Positions 6,118-14,251 of a DNA stretch of 27,499 nucleotides are shown in pieces. The first letter of the stretch is position 1, and every line of letters begins with the position of its first letter. The translations under genes and the position numbers were made by a program. Source of the DNA: a virus; the IMG/VR virus record IMGVR_UViG_3300035698_006915, positions 1-27,499 of that record. One strand, given 5' to 3'. Under the pieces are notes generated by a model. It made no database searches and was not told the origin of the DNA. It saw nothing but the letters and a program-made list of their open reading frames with translations.

Positions 6118-6357
6118 GTGGCTGATATAGAATTGATGCGTATCTTTCAGGGGTATCTAGAAGGTCCCCTGAAAGATACCTTGTTTATAACTTATGAGCC
6201 ATACATGAGTGCTTACTTTAGATACAGAGAAAGAACTGGGCCTCAATGTCCTTTTTGTAAAAGTGCAGTGAAGCATATTTACTTATCTGAATTTTCAAAG
6301 CACGGAAATGACTTTTTAGAGAGAATAAGAAATGGAAGATGGGAAGGATACTCCTGA
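6118..6357 (+). CDS. Small Cys/His protein (79 aa, GTG start)
   Basis: A 79-residue protein whose C-terminal half holds C44-P-F-C47 followed by H53 and H62, a plausible C2H2-type metal site. The GTG at 6118 is used because the frame opens just upstream; an ATG at 6136 is the alternative. Neither has a clear Shine-Dalgarno site. Codons 8-21 coincide with a perfect 14-bp inverted repeat, which would form a strong hairpin in the mRNA some 20 bases after the GTG. This may control translation, or may mean that the true gene is different. The 3' end overlaps the next gene by 26 bases. Confidence 0.5.
   Translation: MADIELMRIFQGYLEGPLKDTLFITYEPYMSAYFRYRERTGPQCPFCKSAVKHIYLSEFSKHGNDFLERIRNGRWEGYS
6140..6179 (+). 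repeat. Perfect 14-bp inverted repeat with 12-base loop
   Basis: The arms GTATCTTTCAGGGG (6140-6153) and CCCCTGAAAGATAC (6166-6179) are exact reverse complements around the loop at 6154-6165. It is by far the most regular inverted repeat seen in the window and lies in the 5' part of a small gene. It could be an RNA hairpin acting on translation or transcript ends, or a binding site for a dimeric protein. No U-run follows directly, so a classical intrinsic terminator is unlikely. Confidence 0.85.
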
Positions 6358-7111
6358 TATCTTTGATATGCCTGCTCCCGATTTAACGGGGCCTGCTAAG
6401 GAAAAGAAACCTAAAAGAACCACTAAGGCTCTACAGGTTACTGATGAGAACAAAGAGTTAGTCGAGAAAGCTAAAGAAGCTGGTATGCCTATTACCAGTG
6501 CAAACACAGTTGATATACTTACTAAGTTTGTTGAAAGGCAGAAGTACGGTCACCAAGGCGCTATAGCTATGACATGTAAGGGTACTAAGTGTAGTTACCT
6601 GTCTATGTGTCCGATACATGAAGCAGAAGAGAAGCTTCCTGTAGGTAAGCGGTGCCCTGTAGAGAATATACTTATAGAGATGTGGGCTTCTAAGTTTATA
6701 GCCGCTCTCAATATAGATATCTCAGATCCAGAGTATGCCATCGATATGGATATGGTATACGAGCTAGCTGGACTAGAGCTCATAAGAAACAGGGCAGCGT
6801 GTAAGCTATCCGATGAGCCTGATATATTCACTAGCAAAGCTGTAGCATTCTCTCCTCAGGGAGCTACAATCTATGATGACAAGCCAAACATGGCTTTACT
6901 TATACTTGAGCGCTACGGTAAGAGAGTTGACAAGTTGAGAGAGCAACTTATAGCTACTAGATCTGCTCAGGCTAAGATCGGTAAGATATCTGGCGATAGT
7001 TCAGTTAGAGCTGCTAACCTTGCACTTAGAGCTAAACAGATTCTTGAGAAGAGAATGAACCATGGATCCATTGAAGACGTAGAGTTTGAAGTAACAGATC
7101 CTAATGAGTAA
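6332..7111 (+). CDS. Cysteine-cluster protein before the nuclease fusion (259 aa)
   Basis: A soluble 259-residue protein with a basic, Pro/Lys-rich N-terminal tail (to about residue 35) and a cysteine cluster C82-x4-C87-x5-C93-x14-C108, seen as CKGTKCSYLSMCP and GKRCPVE. Four cysteines in this order would bind zinc or an iron-sulphur cluster. The C-terminal half is helical, with a basic last helix (LALRAKQILEKRM). I have a general memory of similar Cys-rich proteins near packaging genes of large phages, but cannot place it in a named family; a small-terminase-like role is possible by position and size. It overlaps the next gene by eight bases. Confidence 0.62.
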   Translation: MEDGKDTPDIFDMPAPDLTGPAKEKKPKRTTKALQVTDENKELVEKAKEAGMPITSANTVDILTKFVERQKYGHQGAIAMTCKGTKCSYLSMCPIHEAEEKLPVGKRCPVENILIEMWASKFIAALNIDISDPEYAIDMDMVYELAGLELIRNRAACKLSDEPDIFTSKAVAFSPQGATIYDDKPNMALLILERYGKRVDKLREQLIATRSAQAKIGKISGDSSVRAANLALRAKQILEKRMNHGSIEDVEFEVTDPNE

Positions 7112-8789
7112 CATCTTCTTTGACCTTGAAACTACTGGACTCGGTAAAGAGTCTGGTAAGACTTTCGCTAATGAGATAGGTATATTTAACCTAGCTTATT
7201 CTCAGTCTGGAGGTCAAATATCTACTCTATATGGAACATCTAATGTTCCTTTTGAAGAAGGTAAGTTCATGAAGAATCTTCAGAGAATAAACAAGGCGGG
7301 TATCCTCCGTGCCACTAAGGATAACAGAACAGAGAAGGATATACTTACTAAGTTTGTAGGCAGCCTAAACGAGGGAGATACTCTTGTTGGCTGGAACAGT
7401 TTCGCATTTGACTCTCCTGTGCTAACCCAGAGACTAAGAGACCTGGGACTTAAGAGCGAGGCTACCAAGGTCGCAAGTATGACTCATATTGATATGATGC
7501 ATAAAGTAAAAGGTCACATGGATAGGTTACTCTCGGACTATGGCGATGAATCTCCCTGGCATTTCGGACCAGGAGTTACTCCTAAGGGAATGACTCAAGA
7601 AGCTATAGCTGCTGGGTTAGATATTAATGTTAAAGCTGCTCACATGGGAGGAGATGACGTAAGAGTATTAAAAGAGATATCAGGGCATGCACAAGACTAT
7701 GAGACATTTAAAAAAAGATTCACACCAAATTTAAGAAAGTGGGCAAGGCATGTCGATAACCAAAGAAGACAAGAGTCTCCTAACTCTAAGTACGCTTCTT
7801 ACGAACAGTTCTTCAGTTCCAAGCAAGGCAACATAGCGAGAAGTCAGAGTTCAGCAAATAAAATTAGTCAGTCTTCCTACGTAAGAAGTTCCTCTGAGAT
7901 AGACCAGCTAAACTGGAACAGAGCAGGAGTTGAAGCTGCAGGGGAGGACATCTCTAAGGTCGCTGCTTCTGCTGCGACAGAGGCTAGCGAAGGATTCATG
8001 AAAGGCTTAAACGAGCTAGGTACTGTTAAGAACGCAGGTATACTTGCGGGAGTAACTGTTGGAGCTATAGCCGTAAGCAATATTAAGAAGTACTTTCAGG
8101 ACAAGGGAGACGAGGTTCCACAGAATCTAAGGATAAGTGCTCGTGAACTTGGCAAGCCTATGTACGAGATAGTAAATGACTTGAAAGTAGCTGGCACAAC
8201 AGAGAGATTAAACAAGCAGCTAAAAGCACAGTACCATACAATGGGCGCTGGTACTATTATAGGTAGACAAGTAGAAGAAGAAATGTCTGAGCTTCCTAAC
8301 TTTGTAGGTGCGGAAGTGGAACTTGAAGACAGGTTCCTTGGAGTCAAAGGCTTTGCTGATACGGTTATGAACATCGAAGGTGAAGATAGGCCAATAGAGC
8401 TTAAGACTATAGATGATGCAGACTTTGATAAGCTTACTGGGCCTAAAGCATCGCACGCAATGCAGGCTAACTTCTATACTCATGCACTGGGAGCTGAGAT
8501 GGGATATGTAATGTATATCTCACGTGAAGACCCTAGCAAGCGCGTTACTTTTGATGTTCCATATGATCCAGGCTCATTGATAGCTGCAGTAGAAAAGTAT
8601 AGAGGAGCTGTTCATCAGGCTGGGCAGTCAGGTGGATACAGCACTGCTTTAGAATATTTTTTCGGAAATAAGTCAGGCACAAGAGATCAGACTAATAGAA
8701 GCTATCTAACTGGTCCAGGCTACAAAAGAACACCTAATGATCCTAACAACTCTCACGTTGGATCAAGAAACATACCGAGGAACTACTAA
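7104..8789 (+). CDS. DnaQ-like DEDDh exonuclease fused to RecB/Cas4-like PD-(D/E)XK nuclease (561 aa)
   Basis: Two nuclease domains in one chain. Residues 1-200 carry the DEDDh 3'-5' exonuclease motifs: D7-L-E9-T-T-G (Exo I), N98-SFAF-D103 (Exo II) and H180 with D185 (Exo III, spacing HxxxxD). A Ser/Gln-rich linker follows, then a hydrophobic stretch at about 300-316 (ILAGVTVGAIAV). Residues 370-480 fit a RecB/Cas4-like PD-(D/E)XK core: D409, E422-L-K424 and the Q444-x3-Y448 motif typical of that superfamily. The usual upstream motif I histidine is not obvious. Known members of these families trim DNA ends; here the pairing suggests processing of viral or host DNA. It sits before three hydrophobic proteins and upstream of TerL, so a virion-associated or membrane-linked role is conceivable. 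Nuclease assignment is confident; role is inference. Confidence 0.85.
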   Translation: MSNIFFDLETTGLGKESGKTFANEIGIFNLAYSQSGGQISTLYGTSNVPFEEGKFMKNLQRINKAGILRATKDNRTEKDILTKFVGSLNEGDTLVGWNSFAFDSPVLTQRLRDLGLKSEATKVASMTHIDMMHKVKGHMDRLLSDYGDESPWHFGPGVTPKGMTQEAIAAGLDINVKAAHMGGDDVRVLKEISGHAQDYETFKKRFTPNLRKWARHVDNQRRQESPNSKYASYEQFFSSKQGNIARSQSSANKISQSSYVRSSSEIDQLNWNRAGVEAAGEDISKVAASAATEASEGFMKGLNELGTVKNAGILAGVTVGAIAVSNIKKYFQDKGDEVPQNLRISARELGKPMYEIVNDLKVAGTTERLNKQLKAQYHTMGAGTIIGRQVEEEMSELPNFVGAEVELEDRFLGVKGFADTVMNIEGEDRPIELKTIDDADFDKLTGPKASHAMQANFYTHALGAEMGYVMYISREDPSKRVTFDVPYDPGSLIAAVEKYRGAVHQAGQSGGYSTALEYFFGNKSGTRDQTNRSYLTGPGYKRTPNDPNNSHVGSRNIPRNY

Positions 8790-8792
8790 GTC

Positions 8793-9263
8793 ATGCTAGG
8801 AGCTAAACTAGGAGAAGCATTTTTTGAATCATTTCAGAAATCTGTCATTGGTAGAAATATGATGCCAGGACCTCTTGACTTATTCAGAGCAGAGCAGAGA
8901 GGTAAGTTCGCTCGAATGATTGGTGACGACACACAGGGTTCTATAAAGAACTACTTCGAAGGAAGAAATGTGTCAACCGCAGGTGACGCTCTTCAATGGG
9001 GAGACACTAGCGATAAACTTGCTAAGACAAGGAAATACGCCGCAGGTGGAGCAGCTGGCTTACTTGCGGCTAATGCATTTGGGTTCGATCCCTTTGGTGC
9101 AACTAGTGGTGCCAACAATCTTACACAACTGGGAGCTAACGCTGCCATTGGCTCAACCATGTATGGATCAGGTAGTAAAGGATTAAAGCTCGCGGGCTTA
9201 GGTTACTTAGCAACGACCGCTGTTAATACATTTAGACCTGGTGACAACATGGGGCCTCAGTAA
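8793..9263 (+). CDS. Gly/Ala-rich hydrophobic protein 1 (156 aa)
   Basis: The N-terminal half is soluble, and the C-terminal half is Gly/Ala-rich with hydrophobic segments at about 82-98 (AAGGAAGLLAANAFGF) and 114-146. Small-residue repeats of this type pack as membrane helices and are seen in phage ejection proteins and pore formers. It starts three bases after the nuclease fusion, with GAGGA at 8777-8781. It is the first of three similar-looking genes joined by TAATG overlaps, so the products are probably made in step and may act together. No named family is recognised; membrane or virion association is inferred from composition. Confidence 0.66.
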   Translation: MLGAKLGEAFFESFQKSVIGRNMMPGPLDLFRAEQRGKFARMIGDDTQGSIKNYFEGRNVSTAGDALQWGDTSDKLAKTRKYAAGGAAGLLAANAFGFDPFGATSGANNLTQLGANAAIGSTMYGSGSKGLKLAGLGYLATTAVNTFRPGDNMGPQ

Positions 9264-10225
9264 TGTTAGCAGCAGCATTGGCACTAGGTGGTATACATGC
9301 TGCCAAAAACGTAGGCTCAATAGGTGGGTTAGCCAGGGGTGCATTTAGCACAGGCTTAAGTTCCTTCAGAGGAGCAAGTAAAGGTTTAAAAGGACTTCAT
9401 AAGCCAACTCATTCTGCAGTTAAGTACGGAGTCGGAGCTGTAGGCGGATATGCAGGTTACCAAGTTGGAGGAGCAGTAGGCGATTTCGCTGGACAAGCTC
9501 ACCTTGCGTATGAAGGAGAGAATGAGACAAGTCTAGCTGTTGCATCCAAGATGGGAACTATGGGTAGGATGGGAGGTATGCTACTTGGAGGCGGCCTAGC
9601 TATGGGAGCAGTCAAGATGGCAGCACCAGGTCCTGCCGGTAGAGTAGCTAGCGTAGCTAAGGCAGCTAACACAACTGCTATTGATTTATCTTCTAGAGTC
9701 TTTAATCGTAGTGCTGCGAGAGCACACCGTCAAGGAGTAGCAAACAATGCTAACTTCTCATACGTTAACATGTCAAGGACTCCAATGAACTCCGCGGTTA
9801 CAGCATCAAATGGTTATGGTCAAGGCTTCGGACAGGGCTTTGCTTACACAGGTAATGTTGCTGGAAAACAAAGACACGGAAGAAGAATACAGAAGAGAGC
9901 TAAGAATATAAAAAATCTTAGAAGAAAAGCAGATCGCTCTGCCCTTAAGGGACGTAACTCTATTCTTGGAAGGTCTTTACAGGGTAATGCTACTAAGTCA
10001 GCTTCGTTCAAGTCAGACTTTGCCTTTATGGGCGCAGGACTAGGGCTCGGAGGAGTAGGCGCTATAGGAGCTGAAGGTCTAAACCCAACAAGAAGAGTCG
10101 CTCCAGAGGGTATGATATCTGCTATACAATCTTCGCCTAGAGGCGGTATAAGTCCAGAGCTTCAAATGTCCACACAAGGACTTACTCTTGGCATACACAA
10201 TAGAAGGAAGCAAAGGATAATATAA
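9263..10225 (+). CDS. Gly/Ala-rich hydrophobic protein 2 (320 aa)
   Basis: Hydrophobic Gly-rich segments lie at about 1-10, 52-77 (YGVGAVGGYAGYQVGGAVG), 103-121 and 253-271 (FAFMGAGLGLGGVGAIGA). Between the last two is a strongly basic stretch, residues 202-231, with runs of Lys and Arg, suitable for contact with DNA or acidic lipid. The combination of glycine-zipper-like membrane segments and a basic patch recalls phage proteins that travel with the genome or line a channel, but no family is recognised. It overlaps the previous stop by one base and is coupled to the next gene in the same way. Confidence 0.66.
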   Translation: MLAAALALGGIHAAKNVGSIGGLARGAFSTGLSSFRGASKGLKGLHKPTHSAVKYGVGAVGGYAGYQVGGAVGDFAGQAHLAYEGENETSLAVASKMGTMGRMGGMLLGGGLAMGAVKMAAPGPAGRVASVAKAANTTAIDLSSRVFNRSAARAHRQGVANNANFSYVNMSRTPMNSAVTASNGYGQGFGQGFAYTGNVAGKQRHGRRIQKRAKNIKNLRRKADRSALKGRNSILGRSLQGNATKSASFKSDFAFMGAGLGLGGVGAIGAEGLNPTRRVAPEGMISAIQSSPRGGISPELQMSTQGLTLGIHNRRKQRII

Positions 10226-10824
10226 TGTACATGGACTACAACGATAGCACTCCAAGAACTCATGACAATCTGTATAACAATATATGGAAAGACATTGGGT
10301 TAACTGTTGGGTCTGGAGTTGGAGGCTTCGCGGCAAGAAAGTATGGAAAAAGAGGCTATAAAGAACTTAGAGCTTCTCAGGATGCAGCGATGGCACAAAC
10401 CGCTAGAAGACCTGTCCCAGGTAGTCAACACATGCGCGGTTACGGTGGAGAGCCTAGAAACATGGGCAAGCAACCATTCATGAATCAGGCAAGCAGAGAA
10501 AGCATTGCATCTAGTGTGACTGGTAAAAAAAGAGTTTACGGCTTCGGCAAGAAACTTACCAGTATATCTAATGTATTTGGATGGGCAACGATGGCCTATA
10601 TGGGAGCTAACTTAGCTTCCTCCGCCCTGAGATCAGGGCAATCTTTCAGAACTACCAAGCAGGAAGTAGAGAAAGCAAATTTCAATAGTATGAACGATCA
10701 AGGTACATACTACGACACAAGAGCAGCGTATACTCAAAGACAGAGAGCGTTGCAGGTTATACATAACTCCCGTCTGTCGCTCAAGCCTATGCTTGGCGCA
10801 GAGTCAAACTACTTGCATTACTAA
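10225..10824 (+). CDS. Gly/Ala-rich hydrophobic protein 3 (199 aa)
   Basis: A 199-residue protein with hydrophobic Gly/Ala segments at about 23-37 (GLTVGSGVGGFAA) and 113-134 (ISNVFGWATMAYMGANLASSAL), a basic middle and a polar C terminus rich in Gln, Arg and Tyr (RQRALQVIHNSRLSLKPML). It closes the three-gene hydrophobic block, joined to the previous gene by TAATG. Its C-terminal block reads like a conserved binding motif and is a good search seed. Membrane or virion association is inferred only from composition. Confidence 0.64.
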   Translation: MYMDYNDSTPRTHDNLYNNIWKDIGLTVGSGVGGFAARKYGKRGYKELRASQDAAMAQTARRPVPGSQHMRGYGGEPRNMGKQPFMNQASRESIASSVTGKKRVYGFGKKLTSISNVFGWATMAYMGANLASSALRSGQSFRTTKQEVEKANFNSMNDQGTYYDTRAAYTQRQRALQVIHNSRLSLKPMLGAESNYLHY

Positions 10825-10828
10825 ACAG

Positions 10829-11227
10829 ATGTCAACAAAAGATACAGCAATAAGCAAAGACACTAGAATATCCATAGGGCTCGTCGGAGTTCTTGTCGCT
10901 GCTTTCTTAACTGGAGCATTCTGGGTAAAAGACCAGATGCAAAATACAAGCACGACGATGTACACAAACAACGCCGCGCTGTTAGCAGAGATAGCTAAGA
11001 CTAATAGTCAGCTACTGCTAATGAATACAAGACTGCAGGCGATAGAAAGGAGTGTAGATACTAAGTATGAATACCTGGAAGGTTATATAGATAGCAAGTT
11101 CGATATAATAGATGATAAGCTAACGAAAGCAGGCGAAGACCGCATTTATAAGCATGAATTTTTAAGCTGGGTAGAGTTGCTGAAAGCAAAGAACAAGGGT
11201 ATTATAGAAGTACCTGTAGTGCATTAG
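10829..11227 (+). CDS. Single-pass membrane protein with coiled coil (132 aa)
   Basis: One transmembrane helix at residues 14-33 (SIGLVGVLVAAFLTGAFWV) follows a short polar N terminus, and a long heptad-like region (about 35-100) follows it. The C terminus, EFLSWVELLKAKNKGIIEVP, resembles the end of many small phage membrane proteins of unknown function found among structural genes. The start at 10829, four bases after the previous stop, is preferred over a frame extension to 10793 that lies inside the upstream gene. It could be holin-like or anchor a complex at the membrane; there is no endolysin nearby to support a lysis cassette. Confidence 0.68.
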   Translation: MSTKDTAISKDTRISIGLVGVLVAAFLTGAFWVKDQMQNTSTTMYTNNAALLAEIAKTNSQLLLMNTRLQAIERSVDTKYEYLEGYIDSKFDIIDDKLTKAGEDRIYKHEFLSWVELLKAKNKGIIEVPVVH

Positions 11228-11237
11228 ACAAAAAAAT

Positions 11238-12257
11238 ATGAACAACGTAGAAAAAGAAGTTCTCTCTTTAATGAAAGAGGGATTGGGCAGAAGAAGAATT
11301 GCTGAGGTGCTAGGCATAACTCAGTGGAGTGCTAGACAAATCATAAAGAGGCTACTAGGAAAGAAAGAAGCAGTCTCTAAAACTAAGGCATCACCATCGG
11401 GACCTACTAAGAAGATAAAGAAACAAAATGCTCCTAGGAGTAGAAGCAAGAAACAAGAGAAGACAGTAGTAGAGGTTCAGTCAGTAGGTGTTCAATCAGA
11501 CATGGATTCTGATATACTAACTAGAAGTCCAAATGGCAAGGCTATAGTTTTATCTGATATTCATTTGCCTTATCACGATCACAACGCTCTCCGTATCGCT
11601 CTCGAGTATATGGATGACTGTCAGCCTGATACAATAGTATTGAACGGCGACATAGCAGACTTCTACGGAGTCTCTGCTTACACGAAGACAAAGAAAGACT
11701 CAATGGACTATCAGCAAGAACTTGATGTAGTCAGAGAGTGGCTAGAGGATCTTGTTGCTAGATTCCCCAAGTCTGATATCTATTACATAGAAGGAAACCA
11801 CGAGACTAGAGCAAAGAGAACCTTAGCTAATAACGCTCCTGACTATTCTTCAATGAGAGACATGAGAGTTAACGTTCAGCTTAAGCTTGACTCGCTAGGC
11901 ATAACATGGATCCCTGAAAGTCAACAGCTTAAGATAGGCGACCTTATGTTTATTCATGGTCACAAAGTTAGAAAACATGCAGGTACGACAGCTAGAGCTC
12001 ACTTCGAAGACTACGGCTGCTCTATCATTGTTGGCCATGTTCACAGGCTATCTGTAGCATACAAAAGAAATAAGTTTGGTAATCACGCTATGATAGAGAA
12101 CGGTACTCTATGCGACATAGACGTTGAATACGTGAAGTATCCAGACTGGCAACACGGATTCACCGAAGTAAATTTTGATGGTAACGACTTCTCTATAGTG
12201 CAGCATGCGATAAAAGATTACAAGCTGGTAACTGCGGACAAAGTCTACGTTCTATAA
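11238..12257 (+). CDS. Helix-turn-helix protein fused to a metallophosphoesterase (339 aa)
   Basis: Residues 1-40 form a helix-turn-helix of the homeodomain-like kind (EGLGRRRIAEVLGITQWSAR). A Lys/Ser-rich linker (45-75) leads to a calcineurin-type metallophosphoesterase with the complete metal-binding set: D107-I-H109, G137-D138, G186-N187-H188-E189, H240-G-H242 and G266-H267-V-H269. Such enzymes hydrolyse phosphomono- or diesters with two metal ions; some act on nucleic acids. The DNA-binding domain and the one-base overlap with terL (TAATG) suggest that it works on DNA with the packaging motor, perhaps filling part of the small-terminase role, but it could equally be a regulator or nuclease. 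Domain calls are firm, the role is inferred. Confidence 0.88.
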   Translation: MNNVEKEVLSLMKEGLGRRRIAEVLGITQWSARQIIKRLLGKKEAVSKTKASPSGPTKKIKKQNAPRSRSKKQEKTVVEVQSVGVQSDMDSDILTRSPNGKAIVLSDIHLPYHDHNALRIALEYMDDCQPDTIVLNGDIADFYGVSAYTKTKKDSMDYQQELDVVREWLEDLVARFPKSDIYYIEGNHETRAKRTLANNAPDYSSMRDMRVNVQLKLDSLGITWIPESQQLKIGDLMFIHGHKVRKHAGTTARAHFEDYGCSIIVGHVHRLSVAYKRNKFGNHAMIENGTLCDIDVEYVKYPDWQHGFTEVNFDGNDFSIVQHAIKDYKLVTADKVYVL

Positions 12258-14251
12258 TGGCTGAAGAAACGCAAGGACCTGATGTAACAGGTGAAGTGAA
12301 GAATGCAAAGGACATGCTTGTTAAGTATGTCCCTGAGCGTCCATATAAAGACAGAAAATATAAGCCTTACAAGAAGGGCTTCACTGATCTTTGCGGACAC
12401 TGCAAGCATTACTACAAAAACATACACGAGATAGGATTAACAACTAATGCTTTTCCTGTAGAGTGCGAAGGACACATACTCGATCCTCTTAAGAATCTTA
12501 GAGAGGATGACTTCGATAACGAAGAAGAGTATCAAGAAGTGGTAACAATGATAGACCCAGTAAGCTGGGCCTATAAGATGTTCCCCGATGAGCTTGGAGA
12601 AGGATGGAAGGCTCGTTGGTACCAGGAAGAGCTTGCCTCATGTACAGCTGACAGAAAGATAGTCCGAGCTGGAAGACGAACAGGCAAGTCCGAGCTTATC
12701 TGCATGATGATGATGTGGATGACACATGTGAATAGCAACTTTACTATTCTCGTCATTGTCCCTTATGAAGCACAGGTTAACTTGCTCTGGGATAAGATCA
12801 TGGCATTCGTATCTAAGTCACCAGAGATTGAAAGTTCTATCAGGCGTAGTACTAAATCTCCAGAGCACAGACTCGAGTTTAACAATGGTTCTAAGATCAT
12901 TGGTTTCTCATCTGGTCCATCCTCTGCTGCTAGATCAGATAAGATTCGTGGTCAGGATGCTAACTATATCGTTCTCGATGAGGCAGACTACCTTGCTGGA
13001 GATGACATCGAAGCTATCCTTGCTATCCTTGCGTCGCATACTCACTGTGGTACGTGGGCATCTTCAACTCCTACAGGTAAGCACGACAAGTTCTACCAGT
13101 TTGCTACGTCTAAGGACGCTGGCTTCAAGGAGTTCCACTTCATATCAGCAGAGTCTCCCTCCTGGACAGACAATGCTGAGATGTTCTATAAGACTACATA
13201 CGATGCTGTAACATATGAGCATGAGTTCTTAGCCGAGTTCGGTATCCAAGAGCAAGGTGTTTTCAGAAACGACCTTATCGATGCATCTCTAATGAACTAT
13301 TCTCTCCCAAGAATAAGATCAGGCCCAGGCTCTCGTATTGTTATTGCATGCGACTGGAACGGACAGGCTGTCGGAGCTCATATAGTTGTCGTAGAAGTTG
13401 TTCACTCGACTAGAGGCTTGAAGTATGTCCTCCTTGACAAGATAATAGTTAAAGGAGTTGAGTTTACTCAGCACGCATCAGTCAATAGAATCATAGAACT
13501 AGATGAACAGTATGGTGCTGACTTTATCTACATAGACCATGGCTTCGGAGAGATGCAATTTGAAATGCTTCAGATGCATGGCAAGCAAACTCCAGGAAGC
13601 ACTCTACATAAGAGAGTAAAACCTTACATGTTCGGAGGCCAGATAGAGATAAAAGATCCTCTGAGTAATCAGATGATCAAGAAGCACGCTAAACCATTCC
13701 TGGTTAACGCAACTCTTCTAGCGCTTGAGCGCGGTGCTCTCATATTGCCTACCTGTGAAGATACTCAGATCCTTGTTAACTCTGCTGACGACGAAGAAGA
13801 AGGTCAGACTAAGGGAATCATTCAGCAGATGCGTAACTTTGCTATCGAAAGATACTCTGTGTCAGGACAGCCTACATATTCACAAGGAGAGGATCACTCT
13901 CTCATAGCTTACATGCTTGCCATCACCGCATTCCTACTTGAGTTTTCAGACATTAAGAAAGATATGTCTATTAACGAGCAGATGTTGTTTATCAAGAAGG
14001 TAGACAGCGAAGGAACACCTGTAGGAAAAAGCGAAGCAAGTAAAGAACTCTCTGAGCTTGTGAGACAGCTTGGAGCCGGAAAGCCTTCTGCTGAGTTAAG
14101 CAAGAACGTACTATCCACTATCAAGAATATAAAGTCCAATCAGCAATTCGTTAAGAAGAAGATCGCTGGCGGCAATAGATCTACCCTTGGAGAGTATCTG
14201 AATGGTGGCAATAGAAATTCAATGGGAAAAAATAGCAGAAAGAACTTCTAA
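12257..14251 (+). CDS. terL: Terminase large subunit (TerL, 664 aa)
   Basis: The packaging motor: ATP hydrolysis pumps DNA into the prohead and the nuclease domain cuts the concatemer. The Walker A motif is R137AGRRTGKS145, Walker B Y237IVLDEAD244, the coupling motif S269-S-T-P-T-G. The RNase H-like nuclease shows D366 (IACDWNG), D427 (YIDHGFG) and D536 (GEDHSL). Ahead of the ATPase lies an extra N-terminal segment of about 100 residues with C46-x2-C49 and C70, possibly a metal site; its acidic stretch is rich in Asp/Glu. The length of 664 is at the long end for this family. It is coupled by TAATG to both neighbours. No separate classical small terminase was identified next to it. Confidence 0.96.
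   Translation: MAEETQGPDVTGEVKNAKDMLVKYVPERPYKDRKYKPYKKGFTDLCGHCKHYYKNIHEIGLTTNAFPVECEGHILDPLKNLREDDFDNEEEYQEVVTMIDPVSWAYKMFPDELGEGWKARWYQEELASCTADRKIVRAGRRTGKSELICMMMMWMTHVNSNFTILVIVPYEAQVNLLWDKIMAFVSKSPEIESSIRRSTKSPEHRLEFNNGSKIIGFSSGPSSAARSDKIRGQDANYIVLDEADYLAGDDIEAILAILASHTHCGTWASSTPTGKHDKFYQFATSKDAGFKEFHFISAESPSWTDNAEMFYKTTYDAVTYEHEFLAEFGIQEQGVFRNDLIDASLMNYSLPRIRSGPGSRIVIACDWNGQAVGAHIVVVEVVHSTRGLKYVLLDKIIVKGVEFTQHASVNRIIELDEQYGADFIYIDHGFGEMQFEMLQMHGKQTPGSTLHKRVKPYMFGGQIEIKDPLSNQMIKKHAKPFLVNATLLALERGALILPTCEDTQILVNSADDEEEGQTKGIIQQMRNFAIERYSVSGQPTYSQGEDHSLIAYMLAITAFLLEFSDIKKDMSINEQMLFIKKVDSEGTPVGKSEASKELSELVRQLGAGKPSAELSKNVLSTIKNIKSNQQFVKKKIAGGNRSTLGEYLNGGNRNSMGKNSRKNF

Follow-up and report, generated by a model that had tools for sequence, protein, structure and literature searches.

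Polyvalent proteins combine several enzymatic domains in a single chain with variable architectures, and the phage versions, encoded near late virion genes, are considered to be packaged (Iyer et al. 2017, PMC5512222). In giant phages and in T4, ejected or internal proteins travel inside the head and reach the cell with the DNA (PMC5694885), a route proposed below for the protein studied here. We analyzed a 27,499-nt stretch of viral DNA (the window; IMG/VR record IMGVR_UViG_3300035698_006915, positions 1 to 27,499) in which one gene, encoding a protein here called X (P0001), was originally predicted to place two nucleases in one chain, a prediction borne out by profile HMMs, an AlphaFold model and full-length homologues in two other contigs. 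The parts of X are arranged as follows.

7104 to 8789, plus strand: slot protein X (P0001), 561 aa, with a DEDDh domain, a Gly-rich hydrophobic helix, a PD-(D/E)XK domain and a C-terminal tail
7104 to 7721, plus strand: DEDDh 3′-5′ exonuclease domain, residues 1-206 (RNase_H_2, phrog_192/403, 2gui fold match)
8034 to 8102, plus strand: hydrophobic Gly-rich helix, residues 311-333 (hydropathy; low-confidence helix in the model)
8136 to 8618, plus strand: PD-(D/E)XK (RecB/Cas4-type) domain, residues 345-505 (phrog_1706, Foldseek 4ic1/5zyt)
8658 to 8786, plus strand: C-terminal tail of X, residues 519-561 (SGTRDQTNR....GSR), conserved with contigs L009 and L011 and weakly with L012

The X reading frame starts with ATG, overlaps the 3′ end of the preceding gene A by its first 8 nt, and belongs to a run of closely packed plus-strand genes. 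A disordered linker containing the helix at 311-333 separates its DEDDh domain (about residues 1-206) from its PD-(D/E)XK domain (about 345-505), and the chain ends in a disordered tail. The AlphaFold model, built on an alignment of 12 sequences that drew homologues from other viral contigs and superseding an earlier 3-sequence model (pLDDT 46.6), resolved most of both domains, with pLDDT 70-95 across the greater part of residues 1-225 and about 385-500, some loops weaker, and the linker and tail below 50. Searching IMG/VR with the P0001 sequence alone found no relatives, and neither did scanning GTDB genomes with the fusion alignment; a search for the same fusion near the terminase large subunit (TerL) gene in other viral contigs found it in IMG/VR contigs L009 and L011, as full-length homologues with about 40% identity and their parts in the same order. 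Because these two contigs independently encode the same architecture, misassembly of two genes, which the original prediction had raised as a possible source of the fusion, is rejected. The TM0106-family RecB-like nucleases presumably also join a PD-(D/E)XK and an RNase_H_2 domain in one chain, in the reverse order relative to X; an NCBIfam scan of P0001 up to an E-value of 1 matched cas4 and PRK09182 only, leaving the TM0106-family model unmatched.

The N-terminal domain matched Pfam RNase_H_2 at 28.5 bits (cut-off 22 bits) and the PHROG polymerase-exonuclease families (phrog_192/403), and its model matched DNA polymerase III epsilon (2gui; Z 15.5, rmsd 2.5 Å over 167 residues) as well as TREX enzymes; the rows of this structural comparison spanned residues 1-202, and the C-terminal domain was assessed by Foldseek and HMMs. 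The catalytic residues D7, E9, D103, H180 and D185, numbered exactly in the original prediction, are invariant in four homologues. The domain has the four acidic residues and the histidine of the ExoI-III motifs and the RNase H-like exonuclease fold that define the DEDDh superfamily, and 3′-5′ exonuclease activity is predicted from the family.

For the second domain, residues 378-504 matched RecB/Cas4-like phage exonucleases (phrog_1706, 7.7e-15; phrog_2506, 2.5e-7), and the best Foldseek matches of the X model overall were two PD-(D/E)XK enzymes, SSO0001 (Cas4; 4ic1, E 9.7e-7) and MGME1 (5zyt). Foldseek and HMMs thus place a PD-(D/E)XK fold within residues 330-561, the region in which the original prediction had allowed that it might be missing. 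The domain has homologues in eight other slot proteins, and its core was modeled at pLDDT of about 75-95, carrying the D, ExK and QxxxY motifs of RecB/Cas4-type nucleases on an alpha-beta core. The residues concerned are D419, E432, K434, Q454 and Y458; they had been spotted correctly, with numbers 10 too low (D409, E422, K424, Q444-Y448). The motif-I His of this nuclease type is replaced by Gly387 in the window copy only, being His in all other homologues that cover the position, and the second nuclease of X may therefore be impaired. Hence the earlier view that both active sites are complete holds for the DEDDh set and fails for the PD-(D/E)XK set. P0001 has no cysteines, so a Cas4-type Fe-S cluster is absent; judged on its sequence, X is not a Cas4 (Fe-S) protein, having neither the four cysteines nor a cas4 score above the cut-off (24.4 bits versus 65). 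A stand-alone Cas4-like gene of Moorella phage MTATph1 (locus L008, 1141-1983) does encode the cysteines that P0001 lacks, and could possibly represent the source type for the fused domain. PADLOC lists both Cas-associated DEDDh and Cas4 models, and we considered a CRISPR role for X; with no cysteines in P0001 and no other cas gene recognized among the scanned window proteins, such a role appears unlikely, and we treat the DEDDh/Cas4 resemblance as one of shared folds.

The genes around X, used to compare loci, are these.

6332 to 7111, plus strand: gene A, left border of the slot, with a Cys/His cluster (HMM matches in 51 loci besides the window)
8793 to 9263, plus strand: Y1, Gly/Ala-rich, present only in the window, L009 and L011
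9263 to 10225, plus strand: Y2, Gly/Ala-rich, with a conserved C-terminal tail STQGLTLGIHNRR
10225 to 10824, plus strand: Y3, right border of the slot, with the C-terminal motif TQRQRALQVIHNSRLSLKPxLGxE..YLH
12257 to 14251, plus strand: TerL (phrog_2, 2.7e-33), anchor of the locus comparison

As originally noted, X lies upstream of TerL, and the portal and major capsid genes follow on the same strand. The description of its neighbors as membrane-type held for one of them, the gene at 10793-11227, which has a clear transmembrane-like segment; the others are Gly/Ala-rich, with hydropathy about as modest as that of the helix in X. Gene A matched no family in Pfam or PHROG; conserved clade-wide beside the slot, it might be a partner in packaging, for instance a small terminase. 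The C-terminal motif of Y3, about 30 residues long, recurs in 52 distinct homologues whose bodies range from 107 to 1205 aa, and is a candidate particle-targeting or anchoring tail; the 1205-aa homologue (L030, 6302-9919) has NMSIEDFMDQFVGVDGQTQQDID-like internal repeats before the Y3 tail. Between the slot module and TerL, the window encodes a metallophosphoesterase with an HTH-like N-terminus (11238-12257), with homologues in 11 fetched loci. Farther upstream, six small tandem ORFs at 623-2522 (starting at 623, 862, 1128, 1704, 2003 and 2289) share a similar N-terminal peptide (MKVTSKTEL-like) ahead of differing bodies. A promoter and terminator scan gave results near chance.

The TerL, portal and capsid genes tie the contig to Moorella phage MTATph1, Bacillus phage KLEB27-3 and Acinetobacter phage ME3, relatives of 0305phi8-36 and large contractile-tailed phages (myophages). 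A TerL-profile scan gathered 80 related loci, and in about 50 of them genes A and Y3 flank a variable slot upstream of TerL, which is recognizable across the 0305phi8-36/ME3/KLEB27-3/MTATph1 clade. In the reading we favor, X bears the cargo in a conserved module, A-X-(Y1)-Y2-Y3, a short way upstream of TerL. The original judgment that it is no standard packaging-module component was right. The two-nuclease form occupies the slot in the window, L009 and L011; among their closest neighbors by TerL, the L012 slot encodes a DEDDh protein without PD-(D/E)XK, and the L017 slot an HExxE...FGSH protein. In the TerL tree the HExxE form (L017) falls outside the DEDDh form (L012), itself outside the two-nuclease form. 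In ME3 gp011, encoded two genes upstream of TerL, the N-terminus is DEDDh-like and a terminal hydrophobic segment is present.

The original prediction placed a hydrophobic linker with a possible membrane segment between the two domains. A hydrophobic segment is present at residues 311-327 (Kyte-Doolittle 17-mer mean 1.82); rather than a clear transmembrane segment, it forms part of a short Gly-rich helix of modest hydropathy, and segments resembling the helix at 311-333 occur in L009, L011, L012 and ME3 gp011. The C-terminal tails of L012 and L017 aligned with a score of 73, reached by 0 of 2000 shuffles, and this pairing was the best match among 1286 background tails, self excepted. The window and L012 tails are also alike, with 0-2 of 2000 shuffles reaching the observed score; directly compared, the tails of P0001 and ME3 gp011 showed no significant similarity, and neither did those of P0001 and the non-nuclease occupant L017, a result that counts against reading X as exchangeable cargo. 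Given that the L012 tail is similar both to that of L017 and to that of the window, the PD-(D/E)XK domain looks to have been inserted between the helix and tail of an L012-like ancestor.

Iterated HMM searches for four domains (DEDDh, PD-(D/E)XK, SNase and HExxE) covered 69 distinct slots. At least 23 of these carry DEDDh, PD-(D/E)XK or SNase, the domain counts being lower bounds since the HMMs missed the DEDDh domains of L033, L022 and ME3, which were recognized through a motif or a Pfam/PHROG hint. By combination, the searches found DEDDh with PD-(D/E)XK in 4 slots, PD-(D/E)XK alone in 6, DEDDh with SNase in 3, DEDDh alone in 3, SNase alone in 5, SNase with HExxE in 2, and none of the four in the remaining 46. 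PD-(D/E)XK and SNase occurred together in 0 of 69, an avoidance that is not significant by our estimate. More distant phages have slot proteins of 700-2085 aa (up to about 2100) in which a repeated linker, FSGxDDxYNTIEGLPHxGxAGxxRRxxTDFGSGYQG, connects SNase, kinase-like and HExxE domains. A scan with this linker as the only query hit 44 loci; in most of them the protein carrying it occupies the A-X-Y3-TerL slot, bordered by A and Y3. HMMs built from window-type domains also detected PD-(D/E)XK and DEDDh among the large linker proteins, with both in L139. P0001 itself lacks the linker repeat, which again counts against the cargo reading. Taken together, the cargo of the slot is exchanged between genomes, ranging from nothing recognized through DEDDh, PD-(D/E)XK, SNase, HExxE and kinase-like domains to several combinations.

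The very large slot proteins with SNase include those of L033 (843-7094), L024 (1428-5291) and L065 (4337-6697); L024 also has a kinase-like stretch, and, by eye only, L065 has a possible ParB-like and L033 a possible ART-like region. An HExxE...GxH...E domain, probably metal-binding, is common to L017 (5959-6852), L033 (4770-5429), L022 (4767-5396) and L024 (3375-3824), and had no match in Pfam and no solved-structure relative by profile search.

In four loci (L136, L154, L157 and L158), the linker protein is sited outside the slot, and its C-terminal part is homologous to ME3 gp035, annotated as a virion structural protein by homology to 0305phi8-36. The L136 protein has an N-terminal PD-(D/E)XK domain (6e-10 with the starting HMM), and 97% of the length of an upstream gene matches the tail sheath of ME3; N-terminal DEDDh motifs among proteins of this type were read by eye and not found by HMM. 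Nuclease cargo and linker are thus tied to a virion protein in relatives, a tie that we infer extends to X. Against this, the KLEB27-3 record labels the slot genes "hypothetical" and other genes "structural", which may mean that the slot proteins went undetected in virions.

The original prediction offered three roles for X, namely trimming genome ends, repairing the genome, or acting on host DNA after entry. The last fits best, because the slot's cargo is exchangeable and relatives fuse nuclease and linker to virion-protein homologues; end trimming and repair fit worse, since neither explains the exchange with SNase and with nuclease-free occupants. We therefore lean, by a small measure, toward placing X in a polyvalent-protein-like cargo slot as a compact member with two nucleases, one that is carried in the virion, delivered with the DNA, and active early. 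X would be packaged in the particle, where its hydrophobic segment, its C-terminal tail and the Y proteins would hold or target it, and would enter the cell along with the phage DNA. Once inside, the DEDDh domain would attack DNA from 3′ ends, while cutting or resection would fall to the PD-(D/E)XK domain. The target would most likely be host DNA or host-defense DNA intermediates early in infection. Injected nucleases would also be a threat to the phage's own linear DNA, which weighs against such cargo.

We consider it unlikely, if still the strongest of the competing accounts, that X is a packaging or maturation enzyme, one that works late alongside TerL and the Y proteins to trim genome ends or remove recombination intermediates before or during head filling and is not ejected. 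Its position directly upstream of TerL, packed tightly with A and the Y genes that are conserved alongside TerL, would suit such an enzyme, as would the metallophosphoesterase that also lies between Y3 and TerL, yet the 46 of 69 slots without any of the four domains are hard to square with a required step, and other slots swap PD-(D/E)XK for SNase or add kinase-like domains. A core packaging or end-maturation role is disfavored because SNase replaces PD-(D/E)XK and many occupants have no recognized nuclease. The same variability makes it improbable that X enters with the DNA to resect the phage's own terminally redundant ends for circularization or recombination, sparing host DNA: SNase, HExxE and kinase-like cargo are unsuited to end resection, and many slots encode no recognized nuclease. 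A 3′-5′ exonuclease with a RecB/Cas4-type nuclease could resect both strands, given the activities established for these families; the terminal repeats of 0305phi8-36 (PMC2147016) would fit as well. Slightly more improbable again is an ordinary intracellular replication or recombination nuclease, two stand-alone enzymes fused for repair and placed by chance in a late operon. Phages do carry stand-alone relatives of each domain, the Cas4-like gene of MTATph1 among them, but the DEDDh and PD-(D/E)XK pairing occurs in four distinct slots of the same locus, the hydrophobic segment and tail are retained, and both domains recur in very large multi-domain slot proteins.

Extending the virion-delivered cargo reading to the clade as a whole, we tentatively propose, with rather less confidence than for X itself, that these phages keep a fixed pre-terminase socket for interchangeable virion-delivered effectors, held by tails, Gly-rich helices and the linker, which may be a processing site; the two-nuclease protein of the window would then be a compact, nuclease-only form. 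If true, a single odd fusion becomes a predictable clade-wide slot for proteins that large phages deliver to their hosts, offering a handle on protein loading into the phage particle, a source of paired nucleases, and an annotation rule for many 700-2100-aa hypothetical proteins upstream of TerL.

Each part of X is already known. Its first domain is alike in fold and in all five catalytic residues to DnaQ/TREX-type DEDDh enzymes (PF13482, PF00929, phrog_192), but is joined to a hydrophobic segment and to another nuclease, outside any polymerase; its second domain shares the fold and D-ExK-QxxxY signature of RecB/Cas4-type nucleases (phrog_1706, SSO0001, MGME1), but without the cysteines and Fe-S cluster and with the motif-I His changed to Gly. 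For a terminase-proximal slot with exchangeable nuclease cargo, including the DEDDh and PD-(D/E)XK pairing, we found no description in the open-licence literature, and the main text of PMC5512222 includes no DEDD, SNase or exonuclease cargo and no mention of the clade, slot, tail or linker. Whereas the ejected and internal head proteins have N-terminal propeptides or capsid-targeting sequences (PMC5694885), the conserved pieces of X are C-terminal. Like phage polyvalent proteins, X sits next to late virion genes. It differs from them in having two domains only, both nucleases. Its slot relatives mix SNase, kinase-like and HExxE domains; these larger relatives, with nuclease, kinase-like and metal-binding domains combined, resemble polyvalent proteins.
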